The notes beneath the pieces were generated by a model. It saw nothing but the letters and a program-made list of their open reading frames with translations. It was not told the DNA's origin and ran no database searches. Positions 11,712-22,576 of a stretch of DNA of 64,000 nt are shown here, piece after piece; within the stretch, counting starts at the first letter, position 1, and the number at the start of each line of letters is the position of its first letter. The translations under genes were made by a program, and so were the position numbers. This stretch comes from Methanosarcina thermophila TM-1 (GTDB taxonomy: Archaea; Halobacteriota; Methanosarcinia; Methanosarcinales; Methanosarcinaceae): contig NZ_CP009501.1 in the NCBI RefSeq assembly GCF_000969885.1, positions 434,001 to 498,000 of the forward strand, in the 5' to 3' direction.

Positions 11712-12599
11712 GATGGGGAAAGAATTTGTTAAGCAGGAATAAATTTATTAAATGTTATAAGGTTTTTTCTTTTCATCCTGCTTATTTCCCTTTGTTTTTT
11801 CTAGCCCTTTAATTTTGTAATCTCTTATTTTTCTGTAATCTCTATTTTTCTGTAATCTCTATTTTTCTGTAATCTCTATTTTTCTGTAATCTCTATTTTT
11901 CTGTAATCTCTATTTTTCTGTAATCTCTATTTTTCTGTAATCTCCGAAATCTTTTTTGTTTTTCATCCAGCATATTATCGACCTGAAGCAAGTTTTTCCA
12001 GTTTCCTGCTATTTTAAAAGATTGTGGGACGTTGAGTGAACTATTTTCAGATTTTTATGTTCAAACTTTTTTATGTTCAAATTTTTTTATATTCAAATTT
12101 TTGATTCATTTTTATCAGTATCCTTTTTAAGAAGTATATGAAAAGCTGTGCATCTTCTTTAAGAAATAATTTGTGAAAAAAGCATCATTTTATAGGGAAA
12201 CTTACTAAATATATTAATTTTATCCTTCAAAATCAAATAATCATGCTGTTCGCAGGTTTGTAGATAAATTAAAACCGGGATTGGATGACTGCGGGGAAGT
12301 TGAAATATTCTGATAAACGCTATCAACAGGCAGGTAAAGATAAAAAAAAGTTAAGATGTTGTCAGCGTTAACTTATTTTCAGTTTGTTATAATCGAAAAA
12401 GATGGTGGAGACTAAACGAGAAAGAAGTAGTAAGAGAATTCCAGCAAGCTGAGACGTTATTTTACGATTTTGTGTTTTTTAATAGTACCAGAAGTATATT
12501 GATAGAAACCGTTATGTTTATATTCTAGTCACGATTATTTTCTAATTAATTTAAGGGAGTGATATTTATAATTACTTTTATCTGTATGGAGGAATTAGC
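11712..12599. other. Long AT-rich intergenic region with 17-bp tandem repeat
   Basis: No gene was found in these 888 bases. A tandem array of TTTTCTGTAATCTCTAT occupies 11829-11944. T-rich stretches near 11761 could end the deacetylase transcript. The rest is AT-rich promoter-like DNA in front of the first surface-protein gene. Confidence 0.6.
11829..11944. repeat. 17-bp tandem repeat, six perfect copies plus a partial
   Basis: The unit TTTTCTGTAATCTCTAT is repeated exactly from 11829 to 11930, with a partial seventh copy to 11944 and a degenerate copy just upstream. There are no spacers, so it is not a CRISPR array. It lies after the deacetylase gene and is probably a slipped-strand minisatellite. 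Confidence 0.9.
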
Positions 12600-15500
12600 A
12601 TAAATAGATTAAAGTTTTTACTACTAGCATCTTTTATTTTCACACTAAGTTCCTTTATCGGAGCAGCTGCGACATATACTGTGGCCGCTGACGGTACGGG
12701 AAACTATGCGACAATACAGGCTGCAGTGGATAATGCGAATTCTGGTGATACAATTATCGTATCCCCGGGAACCTATTATGAGAACATCATTATAAATAAA
12801 ATCGGACTAAAGGATCTGGAGCTGAGGTCTGCATCCGGTGATCCTGCGAATACAATAATAGCCAACTCTACAGGCAGTCATGTAATCTCTATGAGTTATG
12901 GAGATAATTTAACAATTAAAGGATTTACGATCAGTGGAGCTGGAACCGGAAATGCAGGCATCAACATGGTTGGAAGTCACCATTGTACAATTGAAAATAA
13001 TATATTTTCGAATAATGCCCTTGGAGTACAGCTGACTTCAAGCTCCACTTACAACACAATTCGCAACAACATATTTTCTAAAGAAACTGCTGCTGGCACA
13101 GCAATTAATATTGCGAGATCTGGATCTAACGAAATCTCGGGGAATACAATCTCAAACCACAGTTCTGGAATTCTTATTGGTGGATCTGATGGGAACAAGC
13201 TCTCAAGTAATATTGTAAGCCAGAGTATTGAAGACGGTATACTTTTGCAAGCAAATTCAAAAAATAATATTCTTGAAAACAATCTCGTAAGTACCAGCGG
13301 AAGATATGGAATCTATTGTGCAAATTCAGTCGATAATAAACTGATTAGCAATATGGTGTCCAATGGTACCAATGGGATTAATCTTGTATTTTCCCCTGGA
13401 AGCACAATCTCAGGCAATGACGTATCATTTGCCCGTGACCATGCTATCTTTCTGGATAACTCCAGTAATACTAACGTGGAAAACAATAGTGTTTCAAGCA
13501 GTCCCTACGGAATAGCTCTGAGATATTCTAACAATAGTAACGTAGTTAACAATTATGCTTACAACAATACCAGAGGCATTTATATTACCCTGTGGTCAAA
13601 CAACAACATGCTTTCAGGCAATAAGGCATATTCAAATAATAACGGTATTGTTCTTGTATACAGTGCCAATAATAATATTATCGAAAACAATGAAGTAAAT
13701 TCAAATAACAATTACGGCATCGTACTAGGGAATGTATTCGAAAATAAAGTGTTAAATAACAAAATATCGCAAAATGACAGGGGAATTTCCCTCGATGATT
13801 CATCCGTAAAAAATACACTCTCAGGCAATATTGTGAACTCAAATAGAGGTTATGGTATTCGTCTGGATAACTCTGACTACAATAATATTACCAGCAACAT
13901 TGTCCAGTCAAATAAGAACGGAATTTACCTGGTGAATTCTAATAACAGTTACCTTATTAATAATACCGTGCCTGACAGTGAGAGAGCTATCCAACTGTGG
14001 AGCTCAAGTAATGACAAGCTTATTAACAATATTCTCTCAAATAACCGCAATTATGGAATTCTTCTGGATAATTCCAGCAATAATGAACTTTCCGGAAATA
14101 CGGCTTTTAACAGCACTGTAGGCATTTCCCTGAGCTCGTCAGTAGATAACAATGTTTCAGGTAATACTATCAGTTGGAATAGCAATCATGGTATTTTCCT
14201 GTGTGCCAGAAGCCTCAATAACCTTATCTATAACAATAATTTTAACAACGCCGTAAACACCAACGTTAGAAATGATAAGTGCACCTGGAATGTAGCAAAT
14301 ACCAGTGGTAGAAACATTATGGGTGGTCCATACCTTGGCGGCAACTACTGGGCAAAACCTGATGGTACAGGCCATTCACAGATCACACCTGATGAAAACA
14401 ATGACGGATTTGCAGATGAGCCATTTATTACGAGCAACGTTACAGACAACTTACCCCTTATAGATGTTCCTGACCCGATTGCTCCGATTGCAGATTTCAG
14501 TGCCAATCCAACTAAGGGAATTGTCCCGCTCACGGTTGAGTTTAAGGATCTCTCAAAATATGCAACCTCGATAAGCTGGGACGTTAATGGTGACGGAAAA
14601 TCAGACGGTAATAATAGTACTCTTGTTTATGTGTACGATACCCCAGGGGACTATTCTGCCACTCTGACAGCGACAAATGAAAACGGCACGAGTACAAAAT
14701 CTATAACAATAAATGCAGAGGAGTTTATAGTTTATCCTGTCGCCGACTTCAGTGCCAATCCCATGAGCGGTTATACTCCTCTTTCAGTCCAGTTCACTGA
14801 CCTCTCACAGAATGCAATCTCAAGGAACTGGGATATTGGCATTGATGGAACTATTGAGTCTACAAATGCCAGCTTTACCTATGTGTTCTCAGTGCCTGGA
14901 AGTTATCCTGTCAGATTAACCGCCATTAATGAGAACGGCACTTCCTCAAAGGATTTGACAATAACTGCGACAAAGAAGAATTCAGGTGGTGGTGGCAGCC
15001 GTGGCGGCGGTGGCGGTGGGGGTGGTTCCCCAGAGCCTGCAAGAAATGTGGATGTAAAGGAACTTTCACAGGTACGCGTTGTAAGCGGAAATTCTGTGAA
15101 ATTTGATTTCCCGAAGAATGCCACCTGTGTTGTTTATGTGAGTTTTGATGCAAAGAAGACCGCAGGCAAGACCACAACCATTGCCGAGCAGCTCAAAGCA
15201 AAATCAACCCTGACTTCAAATCTGTCCTCAGGTGAGGTTTATAAATACTTCAACCTCTGGGTCGGAAATGCAGGGTTTGCAACGGAAAAGAATATTGAAA
15301 ACCCTGTAGTGTGCTTCAAGGTTGAAAAATCCTGGCTTGAGGATAAGAACATAGACCAGAATTCAATCACGCTTAACAGGTACAGCGATAAAAAATGGTC
15401 TGAACTGCCCGTAAAGCTGTTGAGAGAAGATAGCAAATATCTGTACTTCAAGGCAGACACCCCAGGCTTCACCCACTTTGCAATAACAGGGAATACCATA

Positions 15501-15698
15501 GAGAAACCCACGGCTGATACAAAGCCTGCGGCTGAAACTTCAGAGCCTGAGGAGAAAAACACAACAGTAAATGAAACCAAAAAGGAACAGAATTCTCAGC
15601 AGGGAACCGGGAAGGATAAAGTTACAAGCATACCCGGATTTGAAGGACTTTGTGTTGTAGCCTGCCTTATTACATTATTCCTGCATAAGAAAAAATAA
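12600..15698 (+). CDS. Secreted beta-helix/PKD surface protein with PGF-CTERM anchor, apparent AUA start
   Basis: This cell-surface protein is about 1032 residues. In order it has a signal peptide (NRLKFLLLASFIFTLSS), a long right-handed parallel beta-helix of NosD/PbH1 repeats (about 30-600), two PKD domains (about 630-790), a Gly-rich hinge, a PGF-pre-PGF domain (about 810-965), and a C-terminal SIPGFEGL plus hydrophobic segment plus HKKK tail typical of archaeosortase substrates. The only codon properly spaced after GGAGG is ATA at 12600. No ATG, GTG or TTG occurs between the upstream in-frame TAA near 12551 and GTG 12681, and GTG 12681 would delete the signal peptide. It is the first of three tandem paralogs. 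Its terminal domain is nearly identical in DNA to that of the third. Confidence 0.85.
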   Translation: MNRLKFLLLASFIFTLSSFIGAAATYTVAADGTGNYATIQAAVDNANSGDTIIVSPGTYYENIIINKIGLKDLELRSASGDPANTIIANSTGSHVISMSYGDNLTIKGFTISGAGTGNAGINMVGSHHCTIENNIFSNNALGVQLTSSSTYNTIRNNIFSKETAAGTAINIARSGSNEISGNTISNHSSGILIGGSDGNKLSSNIVSQSIEDGILLQANSKNNILENNLVSTSGRYGIYCANSVDNKLISNMVSNGTNGINLVFSPGSTISGNDVSFARDHAIFLDNSSNTNVENNSVSSSPYGIALRYSNNSNVVNNYAYNNTRGIYITLWSNNNMLSGNKAYSNNNGIVLVYSANNNIIENNEVNSNNNYGIVLGNVFENKVLNNKISQNDRGISLDDSSVKNTLSGNIVNSNRGYGIRLDNSDYNNITSNIVQSNKNGIYLVNSNNSYLINNTVPDSERAIQLWSSSNDKLINNILSNNRNYGILLDNSSNNELSGNTAFNSTVGISLSSSVDNNVSGNTISWNSNHGIFLCARSLNNLIYNNNFNNAVNTNVRNDKCTWNVANTSGRNIMGGPYLGGNYWAKPDGTGHSQITPDENNDGFADEPFITSNVTDNLPLIDVPDPIAPIADFSANPTKGIVPLTVEFKDLSKYATSISWDVNGDGKSDGNNSTLVYVYDTPGDYSATLTATNENGTSTKSITINAEEFIVYPVADFSANPMSGYTPLSVQFTDLSQNAISRNWDIGIDGTIESTNASFTYVFSVPGSYPVRLTAINENGTSSKDLTITATKKNSGGGGSRGGGGGGGGSPEPARNVDVKELSQVRVVSGNSVKFDFPKNATCVVYVSFDAKKTAGKTTTIAEQLKAKSTLTSNLSSGEVYKYFNLWVGNAGFATEKNIENPVVCFKVEKSWLEDKNIDQNSITLNRYSDKKWSELPVKLLREDSKYLYFKADTPGFTHFAITGNTIEKPTADTKPAAETSEPEEKNTTVNETKKEQNSQQGTGKDKVTSIPGFEGLCVVACLITLFLHKKK

Positions 15699-15883
15699 CA
15701 GCCAAAAAGAAAAAATAGAAACAAAGATGGGAGTAAAATCAGAAAGAGAAAGCGAAAATAAGGAAAAAATGATTAAAAAAGAAAATAGAAGACAAGAATT
15801 CGATAAGCAGAAAAGAAAATAAAATAAAAGATAAGAATTCGATAAACAGAAAATAAAATAAAAGATAGAAATTCAATAAAAAG

Positions 15884-15936
15884 GGCAGGATAAAGATATC
15901 AAATCTTTTCTTTATCTTGCCTTCTTTTTCTTTTTG
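15884..15936 (+). terminator. Hairpin terminator after first surface-protein gene
   Basis: The arms GGCAGGATAAAGA (15884-15896) and TCTTTATCTTGCC (15909-15921) pair with one G-U mismatch around a 12-base loop and are followed by a T-rich tract to 15936. Upstream, 15795-15870 holds two to three imperfect copies of an A-rich unit containing AAGATAAGAATTCGATAA. Confidence 0.65.
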
Positions 15937-16452
15937 ATTTTTCTTATTTTTGTGACTTTTTATGATTCTCCCTCTTTATAATAACCTTTAATTGTTTCAC
16001 CAGTTTTTTCCTGGATTTTCCGTTTTTATGAACTGCTCTCACGCTTTCCAGTATGTTATCCTTCCCAGAATATTTTATAGGAACGATATTGGGATGAACT
16101 TTTTAATGTGCAGCCGATTTTTATGCAGTCAGTTCTGGTTTATTTAGCCAGAATCCTCTTTTTCACGCTTGAGGGTTTTATTGAGCCAGAACAGTCTTTT
16201 TTACGTTTGAGGGTTAAGTTTTATTAGGACGCAGGCAGCCTGTCATGTTATAATGAAAGTTGATTCGGGACATAAGAAAAGAAGACTATCTGGTTATTTT
16301 GCTGAGTTTGCAATTGGTTGCTTCTTATCTGGATTTTTATCTCTTTATTTTGATATTATTCTGATTCAATAAATTTATATTATTTAATGTTTAAAATCTG
16401 ATTTATCAATAGAAAATTAAATAATAATTTAAATAAAGCGTGGGGGATTTTA
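15937..16452. other. Intergenic region between surface-protein genes
   Basis: No gene is seen. Two diverged copies of a unit of about 45 bp (TTTAGCCAGAATCCTCTTTTT then CACGCTTGAGGG, and a related copy) occupy roughly 16138-16215. A TATA-like stretch near 16371-16385 precedes the second paralog. Confidence 0.5.
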
Positions 16453-18594
16453 ATAAACAGGTTTGTTACTCTAGCGATAGCTATATTCACTTTTATGTTT
16501 TGTTCGAGTATAGGTACAGCGGTTGAACTAACGGTCCAGCCAGGGGAGTCAATTCAGTCTGCAGTTGATAATGCAAGTTCCGGAGATGAAATAGTCATAA
16601 GTCCCGGAAACTATAGTGAGAATATCATTATAACAAAGGACAATATTGTATTAAGATCCAGCTCTGGAAATCCCGAAGACACCATAATTACAGCAAATAA
16701 TAATGCTTCAAATGTATTGTCTATAGACGCGGATAATGTAACTATTATGGGACTAACCATTACAGGAGCTGGACTTGACAGGTCGGGAATCCAACTCTCC
16801 TCATCCAATTATTGTATTATAGAAAATAACAAGCTCGTTAACAATGCTCTCGGAATATACTTACAGTATTCAATGAACAACAGTATCATTAACAATACAG
16901 TGGAACAGGGCAAGAGAGCAGTTAACATTGAGAGGTCAAATTATAACACAATAATGAACAACAAGGTTTCAGGTCAGCGGTTTGGAATTTATCTCAGTGC
17001 TTCCGAAGGAAATAAACTCTCAGAAAACGAAGCAAATATGAACTCCAACCATGGTATTGTCCTGGAAAATTGTATAAATAACAGTCTCGAAAACAACACC
17101 GCGAATGCAAACGGCGGATATGGTATCCATATAGTGTTTTCAACCGGTAATGACCTGTTCGGAAACATTGCGGACTCAAACACGAATTATGGCATATCTT
17201 TTGTCGATTCCCTTAACAACAGGATTGTAAACAACACCGCGGTCAATAATGCCAGAGGTATTTTCCTGCAAAGATCCAGTGAGAGCGAGATCCTTGACAA
17301 TCTGGCTTTGAACAACAATTACGGTATCCGTCTTTTCTCAGGGATGAACTGCAGTATCTCAGGAAACGAAGTCTCGAACTGTAATGCTTCAGGGATTTCT
17401 TTACTGAGCTCTGCTGACTGTTCCATCAGTGAGAATTCACTGTCAAATAACAGTCTCGGAATAGACCTGGAATTATCCAATAATACTGTAATTCTTAACA
17501 ATACCATCCAGAAAGGCGGAAGGGGAATTAGCCTGCGGGATTCGAGTTATAACCTGGTGTCAAATAACATGGCTTTAAACAACAGATACGGATTTTATAT
17601 ATCTCGCTCTCACTGGACTACACTAATTAACAACACGGCAAGTACGAGCGTTAACCACGGAATTGTGCTGTTAAATTCCACCAATAATAACTTTACAGGC
17701 AATACTCTGAATTCAAATGGAGGGCATGGTGTTTATCTGACAAATTCGAGCACCAATACCCTGGATAGTAATACGGCTTCTGATAACAGTAGAGGCATTT
17801 ACCTGATATCTTCCAGCGGGAACAATATCATAAACAATGCGGTGCTGGGTAACAGGGAATTCGGAATCCTGCTATCGTACTCCATAGACAATAACATCTC
17901 AGGAAATGAAGTTTCTAACGGCGGACGTGGAATCCACCTGAGCACCTCCCAGAGCAATACCATTTCAAGAAATATTATCGCTAGGAACAGTATCTCAGGC
18001 ATTTTCATGAGCTCTACAAGCAATGATAATATCTTCTTTGATAATTATCTGAACAATGTCTTTAACTCAGACGTTAAGGACGGAAGCGCAGGAAATGTCT
18101 GGAATGTCACAAAAACTGCTGGAACCAATATTGTTGGCGGACCATTCATAGCAGGTAACTTCTGGGCAAAACCTGATGGTACCGGATTTTCCCAGACCGC
18201 AACCGATGGGGATGGAGACGGGATTGCTGATACAGCATATAAACTTCCGGGCAACAATTATTCGGACTTCCTGCCTCTGGTAGGGGGCTCTGAGCCTGAG
18301 CTATCTGTATCGCCTCCTGTAGATGTTACGATTCCCGCCTCCGGAGCAGGCATCGATGAAACGGAAATAACGACAAATGAAACTGCTGTCAACAGAACGG
18401 AAACAAATAAGATGGAAAGTGAAAATGAATTAAATAATACAGGTAATAAAACGATAGCAAATACAACAGATACAAACAAAACCAAAGTACCTGTCAACGG
18501 AAATGAAACGCAAACCAATAAAACAAAAACGGATGATGACAGCAAGGTAGAAATGGACATCGATGAGATGGAAGACGATATGAAACTTGATTGA
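16453..18594 (+). CDS. Secreted beta-helix repeat protein, apparent AUA start
   Basis: This is the second tandem paralog, about 713 residues. The signal peptide NRFVTLAIAIFTFMFCSS is followed by VELTVQPGESIQSAVDNA and a parallel beta-helix of NosD-type repeats to about residue 600. An acidic Thr/Asn/Glu-rich tail ends in MKLD. Unlike its neighbours it has no PKD, PGF-pre-PGF or C-terminal membrane anchor, so it may be released or held by other means. As in the first paralog, the codon after the ribosome-binding site (GGGGG, six-base spacing) is ATA, encoding a start of the form ATA-AAY-AGR. The in-frame ATG at 16495 lies inside the hydrophobic core of the signal peptide and has no ribosome-binding site. 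The in-frame stop upstream is at 16399-16401. Confidence 0.82.
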   Translation: MNRFVTLAIAIFTFMFCSSIGTAVELTVQPGESIQSAVDNASSGDEIVISPGNYSENIIITKDNIVLRSSSGNPEDTIITANNNASNVLSIDADNVTIMGLTITGAGLDRSGIQLSSSNYCIIENNKLVNNALGIYLQYSMNNSIINNTVEQGKRAVNIERSNYNTIMNNKVSGQRFGIYLSASEGNKLSENEANMNSNHGIVLENCINNSLENNTANANGGYGIHIVFSTGNDLFGNIADSNTNYGISFVDSLNNRIVNNTAVNNARGIFLQRSSESEILDNLALNNNYGIRLFSGMNCSISGNEVSNCNASGISLLSSADCSISENSLSNNSLGIDLELSNNTVILNNTIQKGGRGISLRDSSYNLVSNNMALNNRYGFYISRSHWTTLINNTASTSVNHGIVLLNSTNNNFTGNTLNSNGGHGVYLTNSSTNTLDSNTASDNSRGIYLISSSGNNIINNAVLGNREFGILLSYSIDNNISGNEVSNGGRGIHLSTSQSNTISRNIIARNSISGIFMSSTSNDNIFFDNYLNNVFNSDVKDGSAGNVWNVTKTAGTNIVGGPFIAGNFWAKPDGTGFSQTATDGDGDGIADTAYKLPGNNYSDFLPLVGGSEPELSVSPPVDVTIPASGAGIDETEITTNETAVNRTETNKMESENELNNTGNKTIANTTDTNKTKVPVNGNETQTNKTKTDDDSKVEMDIDEMEDDMKLD

Positions 18595-19000: not shown

Positions 19001-19591
19001 ATGAAGAAATTAATTGTCCTTCTAACAACCATGCTTATTTTTGCATTAGTCTCTGGAATCGGGGCGGCTAAGGAGATTCCTGTTAATGCGACGAATTCTA
19101 TACAGGCTGCTATAAATAACGCAGCCTCAGGCGATGTAATAATTGTCAAACCCGGGATATATACCGAGAATATTAGAATCACTAAACCAGATCTCGTAAT
19201 AAGGTCTGAGTCAGGGAACCCTGAAGACACTATAGTCAAAGCTAACTCAAACACAAGTGTTTTCAGCATGTCAGCAGTTAACACGACGATTAGCGGGTTT
19301 AAAATAGAATCCGCTGAGACCGGAATTTATATGGCTAACTGCATTAACTGCACGGTTACAAATAACTATCTTTCGGAAAATAAGGTGGGAATAACTCTAT
19401 TTGGTTCGAATTATAATGAAATTTCGGAAAATAGAGTAAACTCAAACAGACAGCATGGGATTCAAATCTTATACTCTGAAGGAAACAAACTCTTAAATAA
19501 CAGTGTAAATTGGAATGATAGAGGAATTAATCATTTATACTCAAACAAAAGCGTGATCTCAGGCAATAATGTCTCTAATAACATGAACTAA
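19001..19591 (+). CDS. 5' part of split surface protein: signal peptide and beta-helix start
   Basis: The 196 residues start with MKKLIVLLTTMLIFALVSG, a clear signal peptide, and continue into NosD-type beta-helix repeats. GGGGAATC stands before the ATG. On its own the product would be a secreted half-helix without an anchor. It stops at the TAA that splits the gene. Confidence 0.6.
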   Translation: MKKLIVLLTTMLIFALVSGIGAAKEIPVNATNSIQAAINNAASGDVIIVKPGIYTENIRITKPDLVIRSESGNPEDTIVKANSNTSVFSMSAVNTTISGFKIESAETGIYMANCINCTVTNNYLSENKVGITLFGSNYNEISENRVNSNRQHGIQILYSEGNKLLNNSVNWNDRGINHLYSNKSVISGNNVSNNMN

Positions 19592-19594
19592 GGA

Positions 19595-22576
19595 ATGTGG
19601 ATTTCTCACTCTAACTTTAATACAATCTCCGGAAACATAGCTAACGAAACCAGCAGGGGTATCTCTCTGGATTCCTCTGCTGATAACAATTTTTCTGGAA
19701 ATATTGTTGCTTTTAATAGCGTATCAGGCTTTTATGAATGTCGTGCCTGCCGCAGAAATCTCATTTTCAATAATTACGCCAATAATAGCCTTAATGCAGA
19801 TATCAACACTGTGGACACCACCTGGAATATAGAAAAAACTCCAGGCACCAATATCGTCGGCGGACCTTTTTTAGGAGGCAATTTCTGGGCAAAACCTAGA
19901 GGCAATGGATTTTCACAGACTGCAACTGACAGAGACAAAGACGGGATTGCTGATTCTGCGTATACTGGCGACTTACAGAACGTTACAGATTATCTGCCTC
20001 TTGTATCAGTTTCCAACCCTGAAAAGCCAATCCCAATTCTACCTGTTGCAAACTTCAGTACCAATGTGACAGGTGGCTATGCTCCTCTTTCTGTCCAGTT
20101 CACTGATCTGTCGCAAAATGCAATTTCCTGGAGATGGGATTTTGAGAGTGACGGAAACATAGATTCAACTGACCAAAATCCGGTTCACACATATACGATC
20201 CAGGGAAACCATACCGTTAACCTAATCGCAGGCAATGAGAATGTCACAGACTCAAAAACTCAGGAGATTATCGTTCAGGAAGCACAGAACGAAGAAAAAA
20301 TCCTTCCCTTTGTAGACTTCAGTGCCAATCCCATGAGTGGTTATGCTCCTCTTTCTGTCCAGTTCACTGATCTCTCAAAGAATGCAACCTCAAGGAACTG
20401 GGACTTTGGAGACGGAACAAATTCAACAGAGCAAAACCCGATGCATACTTATTCTGCACCAGGAACCTATACCGTTAACCTGACCGTCAGCAATGCAAAT
20501 GACTCCACATCAAAACTGAGCACAATAAATGTTCTACAACCTTCTGTTTATGCTTATATTACTAACATGGGCAGCAACAGTGTCTCTGTAATTGACACAT
20601 CTACAAACACTGTTACCGCTACTATAAATGCAGGACATTATCCATTGGGAGTTGTAATTGCCCCTGATGGAACAAAGGCATATGTGGCTAACGCGGAGGG
20701 AACCGTCTCTATAATTGATACATCCATAAACAATGTTATAGGGACGGTGGAAGTAGGAGGTTATCCTTATGGAATTGCAATAAGTCCGGATGGGAAAAAG
20801 GTATATGTGGCGTGTGACGAAGGAAGCAATAACGGATATATCTATGTAATTGACACCTCAACCAATACGGTTACAGCCGCTGTGCCTGTAGGAGATACTC
20901 ATTTAGGAGTTGCAGTGACCCCTAATGGAACAAAGGTATATGTGACAAACTATTTCAGCGACAATATTTCTATAATTGACACTGCAACAAATAATGTTAT
21001 AGGTACGGTAAATATAGGAGACTTTCCTGTTGCAGTTGCGGTGAATCCTGATGGGAAAAATGTATACGTGGCAAATACAAATTATCCACTCGAGGGAGGT
21101 GGAAGATTTACAGGCACCGTTTCTGTAATTGATACAACTACAAACAATGTTACAGCGGTAGTGGAGGTTGGAGCCTCTCCTTCAGGCATTGCGGTCAACC
21201 CGACAGGAACAAAAGTATACGTGGCGAACTATGTTAGCAATAACATCAGTGTAATTAACACAGCAACAAACAATGTTACAGCTTCTGTTAATTTAGGAAT
21301 TCGCCCTTACGGAGTTGCAGTAAGTCCTGATGGATCAAAGGTATATGTAACTAATCAGGGCAGCAACAATGTCTCTGTAATTGATACTGCTACAAACAAT
21401 GTTATAGATACAGTGAATGTAGGAAACAGTCCTGTAGCTTTTGGGCAATTTATAGGAGAAAAATCAGTAGCTCCGGTTTCAAACTTCAGCGGCAATATTA
21501 TGCAGGTAGTACCAGAACTGACTGAAGCTGACAATGGGAGAAGAGTAAATTTCAAATATGGAGAGATTTTTTACCTGATTCTTCGGGAGAAACCGGGTAC
21601 ATCCTATGCTTTGCAACTCAAACTGAGCAATGGTCTCACCATTCTAAGTGAAAAATCAGTACTTATAAATCCTCCGGCATATTTTGAAGTTCCCGGAGGC
21701 GTTATGGGAGTGGATCATATATGGAAAATAAAAGCTAATTCGGAAGGCAACAAGCAGATTAAAGGAACTTACATACAACCTTTAACGAGAAATGTAGCAG
21801 AAACTTATACTGTTTACCTTAAGATAGGCGACGGTGGAAGTAGTGGTGGACGCGGTGGTGGTGGCAGTGGTGGCGGTTCTACTGAACCTGCAAGAAATGT
21901 GGATGTAAAGGAACTTTCACAAGTACGCGTTGTAAGCGGAAATCCAGTTAAATTTGATTTCCCGAAGAATGCCACCTGTGTTGTTTATGTGAGTTTTGAT
22001 GCAAAGAAGACCGCAGGCAAGACCACAACCATTGCCGAGCAGCTCAAAGCAAAATCAACCCTGACTTCAAATCTGTCCTCAGGTGAGGTTTATAAATACT
22101 TCAACCTCTGGGTTGGAAATGCAGGTTTCGCAACAGAAAAGAACATTGAGAACCCTGTAGTGTGCTTCAAGGTCGAAAAATCCTGGCTTGAGGATAAGAA
22201 CATAGACCAGAATTCAATCACGCTTAACAGGTACAGCGATAAAAAATGGTCTGAACTGCCCATAAAGCTGTTGAGAGAAGATAGCAAATATCTGTATTTT
22301 ACGGCTGATACCCCAGGATTCACTTACTTTGCAATAACAGGGAAACCAGTTGAAAATGAAGCCGGAATTGAAATGAAACCTGAAACCAGCACTGCGGAGC
22401 TTGATCAGAATATAACGACATCAGAAATTGAGCAGAGCCAGAAACCTGAACAGGGGAATCTAACAGGCTCACACGAATCTAAAGAGGGGAACCTGACAAG
22501 CATGCCGGAATTCAAAACACTATATGCTATAATCTGTCTTTTTATTGCATACGCCGGCAGGAAGAGGAAAAATTAA
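19595..22576 (+). CDS. 3' part of split surface protein: PKD, YVTN propeller, chagasin-like and PGF domains
   Basis: These 993 residues are in frame with the upstream part. They show the remaining beta-helix (to about 110), two PKD domains (about 150-310), and seven YVTN blades (for example VYVTNYFSDNISIID) from about 312 to 615. Next comes a segment with GEIFYLILREKPGTSY, GVMGVDHIW and YIQPL that matches the layout of I42/chagasin protease inhibitors. After a Gly-rich hinge come the PGF-pre-PGF domain (about 760-915) and a C-terminal MPEF plus hydrophobic stretch plus RKRKN. It lacks a signal peptide, and the only start near the stop (ATG 19595) has no spaced ribosome-binding site, so independent secretion is unlikely. 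Confidence 0.6.
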   Translation: MWISHSNFNTISGNIANETSRGISLDSSADNNFSGNIVAFNSVSGFYECRACRRNLIFNNYANNSLNADINTVDTTWNIEKTPGTNIVGGPFLGGNFWAKPRGNGFSQTATDRDKDGIADSAYTGDLQNVTDYLPLVSVSNPEKPIPILPVANFSTNVTGGYAPLSVQFTDLSQNAISWRWDFESDGNIDSTDQNPVHTYTIQGNHTVNLIAGNENVTDSKTQEIIVQEAQNEEKILPFVDFSANPMSGYAPLSVQFTDLSKNATSRNWDFGDGTNSTEQNPMHTYSAPGTYTVNLTVSNANDSTSKLSTINVLQPSVYAYITNMGSNSVSVIDTSTNTVTATINAGHYPLGVVIAPDGTKAYVANAEGTVSIIDTSINNVIGTVEVGGYPYGIAISPDGKKVYVACDEGSNNGYIYVIDTSTNTVTAAVPVGDTHLGVAVTPNGTKVYVTNYFSDNISIIDTATNNVIGTVNIGDFPVAVAVNPDGKNVYVANTNYPLEGGGRFTGTVSVIDTTTNNVTAVVEVGASPSGIAVNPTGTKVYVANYVSNNISVINTATNNVTASVNLGIRPYGVAVSPDGSKVYVTNQGSNNVSVIDTATNNVIDTVNVGNSPVAFGQFIGEKSVAPVSNFSGNIMQVVPELTEADNGRRVNFKYGEIFYLILREKPGTSYALQLKLSNGLTILSEKSVLINPPAYFEVPGGVMGVDHIWKIKANSEGNKQIKGTYIQPLTRNVAETYTVYLKIGDGGSSGGRGGGGSGGGSTEPARNVDVKELSQVRVVSGNPVKFDFPKNATCVVYVSFDAKKTAGKTTTIAEQLKAKSTLTSNLSSGEVYKYFNLWVGNAGFATEKNIENPVVCFKVEKSWLEDKNIDQNSITLNRYSDKKWSELPIKLLREDSKYLYFTADTPGFTYFAITGKPVENEAGIEMKPETSTAELDQNITTSEIEQSQKPEQGNLTGSHESKEGNLTSMPEFKTLYAIICLFIAYAGRKRKN

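Follow-up and report, generated by a model that had tools for sequence, protein, structure and literature searches.

At which codon does translation of two tandem surface-protein genes of the archaeon Methanosarcina thermophila TM-1 begin? The genes, here called gene 1 and gene 2, lie in a window of 64,000 nucleotides (contig NZ_CP009501.1, positions 434,001 to 498,000; the genome is one contig of 3,127,379 bases), and a first-pass annotation had proposed that both start at AUA. We conclude that genes 1 and 2 very probably do initiate translation at AUA, a reading that the sequence supports through the conservation of the codon in orthologs. What is established here is the position and the conservation of the ATA codons, the in silico pairing of the Shine-Dalgarno (SD) sites before them, the lack of alternatives in many orthologs, and the concentration of such starts in one clade of the protein family.

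In gene 1, GGAGG is separated by 7 nt from ATA AAT AGA (12600), and in gene 2, GGGGG is separated by 6 nt from ATA AAC AGG (16453); from these ATA codons the frames stay open for 1,032 and 713 codons, respectively. By eye, both N-termini resemble signal peptides, with a basic residue, a hydrophobic run, and small residues; the description of a strong SD site at the correct spacing before an intact signal peptide was accurate. The open frame extends no more than 15 codons (gene 1) and 17 codons (gene 2) on the 5′ side of ATA, without any ATG, GTG, or TTG (hereafter canonical codons). The earliest in-frame canonical codon of gene 1 is GTG 12681, codon 28, by which point most of the signal peptide has passed; that of gene 2 is ATG 16495, codon 15, which lies within the signal peptide. 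As had been claimed, neither gene thus offers a canonical codon that would spare the signal peptide.

Orthologs of both genes were compared within Methanosarcina; the genus search for gene 1 covered 30 genomes. In gene-2 orthologs, which include loci of Methanosarcina spelaei MC-15 and of Methanosarcina sp. MSH10X1, Ant1, and DH2, the homologous codon was ATA in 18 of 18 rows. TAA or TAG directly adjoins this ATA on its 5′ side in 10 of the 18, which makes an upstream start impossible in these orthologs. Eight of these ten have no canonical codon in the first 40 codons, and the other two have their first at codon 27. Codon 2 varies among gene-2 orthologs (AAC, AAT, GAC, AAA, CAC, or CAA), and the conserved element is therefore the ATA and not an Asn-Arg pair. 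The AAY-AGR codons 2 and 3 that the two window genes share, which the first-pass annotation had treated as part of the pattern, do not hold as a rule, because they vary in orthologs and paralogs alike (codon 2 being GAC, AAA, CAC, CAA, AGC, and others).

For gene 1, we counted the 19 loci whose match reached codon 1-3. Loci L042, L043, L051-L053, L055, and L057-L059, with matches that ended short of the start, were not counted, and L044 and L045, which have ATA starts, stand outside the 19. The homologous codon was ATA in 18 rows, ATT in one (L047), and ATG in none. Comparison of the orthologous codon across Methanosarcina, suggested as a check in the first-pass annotation, hence gave 18 ATA and 1 ATT of 19 for gene 1 besides the uniform ATA of gene 2. 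A MAFFT alignment of the 19 upstream regions revealed a conserved TATA-like block, a leader, and GGAGG. A leaderless mRNA does not fit this conserved SD site or the leader predicted to separate ATA from the TATA-like element. The spacing of ATA from GGAGG varies by 1 nt among species, so the upstream reading frame is not preserved, and in L048 a TGA directly precedes ATA. The codon with the best SD value differed from the aligned ATA in two rows, namely L032 (an ATT 10 codons upstream) and L036 (an ATA two codons downstream). A leader hairpin of 7 pairs that might sequester the gene-1 SD site through the pyrimidine tract before it (12555-12600) showed no compensatory pair change; 8 of the 19 leaders, when folded, had energies that were ordinary relative to shuffled sequences (z of +0.30 to −1.76).

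Conserved isoleucine columns elsewhere in the alignments mix ATA, ATT, and ATC: none of 16 in the gene-1 alignment and none of 11 in the gene-2 alignment was all ATA, and the highest ATA shares were 0.84 and 0.94. By itself, this comparison argues with moderate force against a plain isoleucine codon; the case for an ATA start is, in our assessment, carried by the adjacent stops and the SD placement. The pattern GGAGG-N(4-9)-ATAAAY occurred 27 times in the genome and 20 times in a reversed control, which is near background. Two ATA cases in a single genome would count as weak evidence against chance, and it is the orthologs that are decisive. The earlier argument that the same start in two paralogs speaks against random error is therefore upheld in its conclusion, via the orthologs, while the pair on its own proves weak; judged by these comparisons, the ATA of genes 1 and 2 is neither a sequencing error nor a local mutation.

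We then asked how far the trait extends within the NosD-like beta-helix family of the genus. As the family search ordered its matches by their likeness to gene 2, the shares given here are valid for members near gene 2 and not for every NosD-like protein. The best rows of this search, taken from the top downward among the matches listed, provided 60 further starts; with another 22 and 8, the gene-1 and gene-2 rows added and 9 duplicates dropped, we obtained 118 distinct starts. Among these, the codon with the best SD site was ATA in 81, ATT in 20, TTG in 9, ATG in 7, and unclear in 1. The feature is thus broader than two genes and includes most family members near gene 2, AUU starts among them. 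Of the 101 ATA/ATT rows, 33 are free of canonical codons in the stretch bounded by the 5′ stop and +10 codons, and 17 have a stop abutting the ATA or ATT; a canonical codon whose SD energy reaches −5 kcal/mol or better is present in just 2. Loci L353 (GGGGGAATTAGA-ATG) and L361 (GGAGGCATTAGA-ATG) carry ATG at the identical position at which the similar loci L351, L341, and L343 carry ATA, a correspondence that marks the ATA, by homology, as the start. At least one gene with an ATA or ATT start is present, by hand count, in 28 of the 30 genomes; in the other two, only an ATG member (G022) or no start (G027) was read. In a subfamily of these surface proteins (L426, L332, L325, L349, and others), TTG follows CGGGG or TGGGG and an AT-rich spacer.

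Family members with ordinary starts served as controls. In the M. thermophila genome, 2 of 13 family N-termini start at ATA (genes 1 and 2) and 11 at a canonical codon, 10 of them with an SD energy of −5 kcal/mol or better. From other Methanosarcinaceae genera, 27 loci were read, and after 4 matches inside long proteins had been set aside, 23 were usable. NosD/parallel beta-helix surface proteins that carry PKD and PGF-pre-PGF domains share the domain make-up of the family, but the 23 relatives all start at ATG, GTG, or TTG: 21 at canonical codons with an SD energy of −5 kcal/mol or better and 2 at ATG without an SD site. In some of these loci (L402, L407, and L414), an ATA or ATT adjoining the canonical start matches it or does slightly better in SD value, showing that SD energy alone does not select the codon. 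The tree, built from 82 chosen rows, united 48 ATA and 2 ATT rows in one group of 50 with support of 86/83, below the program's starred level, and ATA required 4 changes versus 25.7 in shuffles. One ATA row and one ATT row fell outside this group, near TTG members (L324, L333), and a single origin is therefore not established. The median SD energy was −9.5 kcal/mol for the ATA/ATT rows versus −6.6 kcal/mol for canonical starts in a 464-kb genome sample (5 to 95% range, −11.2 to −1.5), a comparison that is indicative only, as the same assumed anti-SD sequence and the best codon were used each time.

Several observations weigh against an AUA start. In 11 of the 19 gene-1 orthologs, an in-frame ATG within or next to the SD site stands 2-7 codons before the ATA; 68 of the 101 ATA/ATT rows have an in-frame canonical codon within the limits of the 5′ stop and +10 codons, nearly always without an SD site; and L041, one of the gene-1 orthologs that lack an upstream canonical codon, has an ATG at codon 4. 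The rows are orthologs and paralogs and not independent events, the ranking by likeness to gene 2 over-samples the ATA clade, and the anti-SD sequence behind the duplex energies is an assumed one and not drawn from the genome.

One rival reading is that translation starts at a canonical codon upstream, an ATG in or just before the SD site, with AUA as an internal isoleucine codon. The 11 gene-1 orthologs speak for this, as do 9 of the 60 further family rows, in which codon −6 is ATG (in a tenth, L360, it is cut off by a stop). In the window, however, ATG 12586 inside the gene-1 SD site lies in another frame, which a TAA closes after five codons (ATG GAG GAA TTA GCA TAA); 8 of the 19 gene-1 orthologs, the window gene among them, lack an in-frame canonical codon upstream; the SD-to-ATA spacer shifts by 1 nt between species; and both the stops abutting ATA in gene-2 orthologs and the near absence of well-placed SD sites at canonical codons in the ATA/ATT rows argue against it. 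An upstream canonical start is ruled out for the window genes and for those gene-2 orthologs whose ATA adjoins a stop, and across the family we regard it as very unlikely. Alternatively, the true starts may lie downstream, at GTG 12681 and ATG 16495, or the genes may be decaying, with ATA as a lost ATG. Some decay in the cluster is suggested by an in-frame TAA in a third tandem paralog, and early canonical codons fall within the signal peptide in L041 (mentioned above), L048 (ATG at codon 8), and L076 (GTG at codon 4). Yet the downstream starts of the window would truncate or eliminate the signal peptide, which is conserved genus-wide, in 8 of the 18 gene-2 orthologs there is no upstream frame and no canonical codon among the first 40, and retention of ATA or ATT at the same spot in 28 of 30 genomes is not expected of independent decay. 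We give this explanation hardly any credence.

Initiation at AUA also raises the question of how the codon would be read. We found 52 tRNA matches in the M. thermophila genome, none with the anticodon UAU and three with CAU, one of which we take, from its anticodon stem, to be the initiator type. For the initiation factor aIF1 (SUI1), 111 Methanosarcinaceae genomes from within and beyond the genus were compared: 109 gave a single match above cut-off, and two incomplete ones gave none; M. thermophila has a single aIF1 gene, as do its relatives. Neither inventory offers a candidate for an initiator tRNA dedicated to AUA or for another initiation factor that reads it, and we regard this explanation as most improbable. 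Just as little speaks for adenosine-to-inosine (A-to-I) editing, by which AUA would become AUI and be read as AUG, or for programmed frameshifting from GTG 16440, although this other-frame GTG on the 5′ side of ATA has a counterpart in most gene-2 orthologs. The 20 AUU members among the 118 starts could not be converted to AUG by A-to-I editing, and we know of no editing of this kind in archaeal mRNA. Ortholog L061 has GCG instead of the GTG, and frameshifting from that codon was rejected on this ground.

We instead infer translation at the ATA itself, together with the tRNA used, a low efficiency, and any regulation. In the simplest reading, the SD site would set the small subunit with AUA in the P site, where the ordinary initiator Met-tRNA (anticodon CAU) could pair with AUA despite the third-position mismatch, and likewise with AUU in other members. 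As the signal peptide is lost from the secreted protein, the first residue would be irrelevant afterwards. The combination of a poor start codon with a strong SD site may be held by selection, most likely to keep the output of the surface proteins low or to tie it to the strictness of initiation (aIF1 activity, growth state). By analogy, low and possibly conditional expression would be expected for the surface proteins of the ATA/ATT set.

Near-cognate starts are known from bacteria. The infC gene of Escherichia coli starts at AUU. It is a model for the regulatory use of such a codon under initiation-fidelity control, but it encodes the factor that senses the codon, whereas the Methanosarcina genes encode surface proteins; their domains (NosD, PKD, and PGF-pre-PGF) include no initiation fidelity factor, and autoregulation of the IF3/infC type does not fit them. 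The infC start and IF3 autoregulation are cited in a study of Staphylococcus aureus (PMC13009471), which describes conserved AUA/AUU starts with an extended SD site in infC, ccpN, and cvfC1 that reach ∼10% of AUG in poor medium and, for one of them, 30% in rich medium. The S. aureus starts resemble ours in that AUA/AUU is well spaced from a strong SD site and kept across related species, and reporters show that they hold expression down; they differ in that the set is bacterial, IF3 controlled, measured, and made up of isolated regulatory genes, whereas the Methanosarcina set is archaeal (with aIF1 and no IF3), encodes secreted surface proteins, and is known from sequence alone. In Listeria, changes of the rsbW start from ATG to ATA or ATT gave the measured order ATG > ATA > ATT (PMC13068326); AUA can thus start translation weakly there too, but the rsbW changes are recent selected mutants and not a conserved state. 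The main text of a ribosome-profiling paper on Methanosarcina mazei (PMC11456600), in the portion consulted, does not mention AUA. A search of the open literature, with most subscription papers outside its scope, found no report of archaeal or Methanosarcina AUA/AUU starts.

The features of the locus are collected in the table below.

Features of the window around genes 1 and 2 (positions refer to the 64,000-nt window)
Feature	Positions	Strand	Remarks
TATA-like element TTTATAT	12517..12523	+	∼80 nt 5′ of gene-1 ATA; conserved block in the alignment of 19 orthologous upstream regions (MAFFT); promoter role inferred
Gene-1 SD core GGAGG	12588..12592	+	Duplex energy −9.3 kcal/mol, assumed anti-SD
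Gene-1 ATA start codon, putative	12600..12602	+	Orthologs 18 ATA + 1 ATT of 19
Gene 1, 1,032 aa	12600..15698	+	Signal peptide (by eye), NosD/PbH1 beta-helix, two PKD, PGF-pre-PGF
Gene-2 SD core GGGGG	16442..16446	+	Duplex energy −8.4 kcal/mol, assumed anti-SD
Gene-2 ATA start codon, putative	16453..16455	+	Orthologs 18/18 ATA; stop directly 5′ in 10/18
Gene 2, 713 aa	16453..18594	+	Signal peptide (by eye), NosD/PbH1 beta-helix
Third tandem paralog	19001..22576	+	Ordinary ATG 19001 after GGGGAATCAAA; in-frame TAA 19589; local control

Gene 1 scores 202.9 bits against the PGF-pre-PGF model (TIGR04213; cut-off 28), and gene 2 has no match to it. The gene-1 C terminus contains PGFEG, a hydrophobic stretch, and KKK, without a match to a PGF-CTERM model at E 0.001. 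Neither window gene reaches the cut-off of 300 for the NosD copper maturation protein (TIGR04247), the scores being 170.9 and 190.2 bits. In the third paralog, which lies directly downstream, the ATG stands at a similar distance from GGGG as the ATA does in genes 1 and 2. Its TAA follows 196 codons, after which 994 codons are open in the same frame, and the gene is either decaying or has a recoded stop; the stretch checked in a close relative (G006) contained no full copy. On the 5′ side of gene 1 (11820-11950), we noted by eye a short tandem repeat of tctgtaatctctatttt-like units.

Genes of other families with possible near-cognate starts were also encountered. A scan of the 464-kb sample (282 genes) flagged 11 but missed genes 1 and 2 themselves, and is thus too insensitive for a frequency to be derived. 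In the window, a gene for a HepT-like RNase toxin (Pfam PF01934; 56977-57321) possibly starts at AUU, judging from a frame that opens 4 codons before an ATT with an SD energy of −7.6 and whose first canonical codon is an ATG at codon 15 from that ATT. A glyoxalase-family gene (L249, 15437-15844, minus strand) has ATT after a strong SD site (−10.0) and no canonical codon in the scanned region surrounding its coding boundary. The search with GGAGG-N(4-9)-ATAAAY yielded a secreted matrixin-type metalloprotease as a candidate (L231, 1515-2216; G000, 1860321-1861022). In its 30 orthologs (L266-L295), the SD-spaced codon was ATA in 9, ATT in 15, ATC in 1, and TTA in 3, with L293 and L294 unplaced; several have ATG at codon 6, and in L273 and L278 a stop follows the SD-spaced codon at a distance of one or two codons. 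The start of this protease is uncertain.

Single AUA/AUU starts are known in bacteria, and a conserved, genus-wide set in one archaeal protein family looks new. If these genes are translated as proposed, archaea would possess a large and conserved natural set of genes initiated at AUA/AUU, and a near-cognate start could be a stable family trait rather than a rare accident. With the genetic tools available for the genus, archaeal start-codon selection by aIF1 and the initiator tRNA could then be tested directly. Gene finders that accept ATG, GTG, and TTG alone miss such starts, and annotated proteins may consequently lose their secretion signals. A bolder and, in our estimate, rather unlikely extension is a Methanosarcina start-codon regulon, in which dozens of surface beta-helix proteins, perhaps with the secreted metalloprotease and the HepT-like toxin, would be co-switched by initiation stringency via AUA/AUU, the trait, which would have arisen in an early member of the genus, having persisted through gene duplication. 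Retention of so odd a start across nearly the whole genus points to a deliberate limiting or regulating of these surface proteins.

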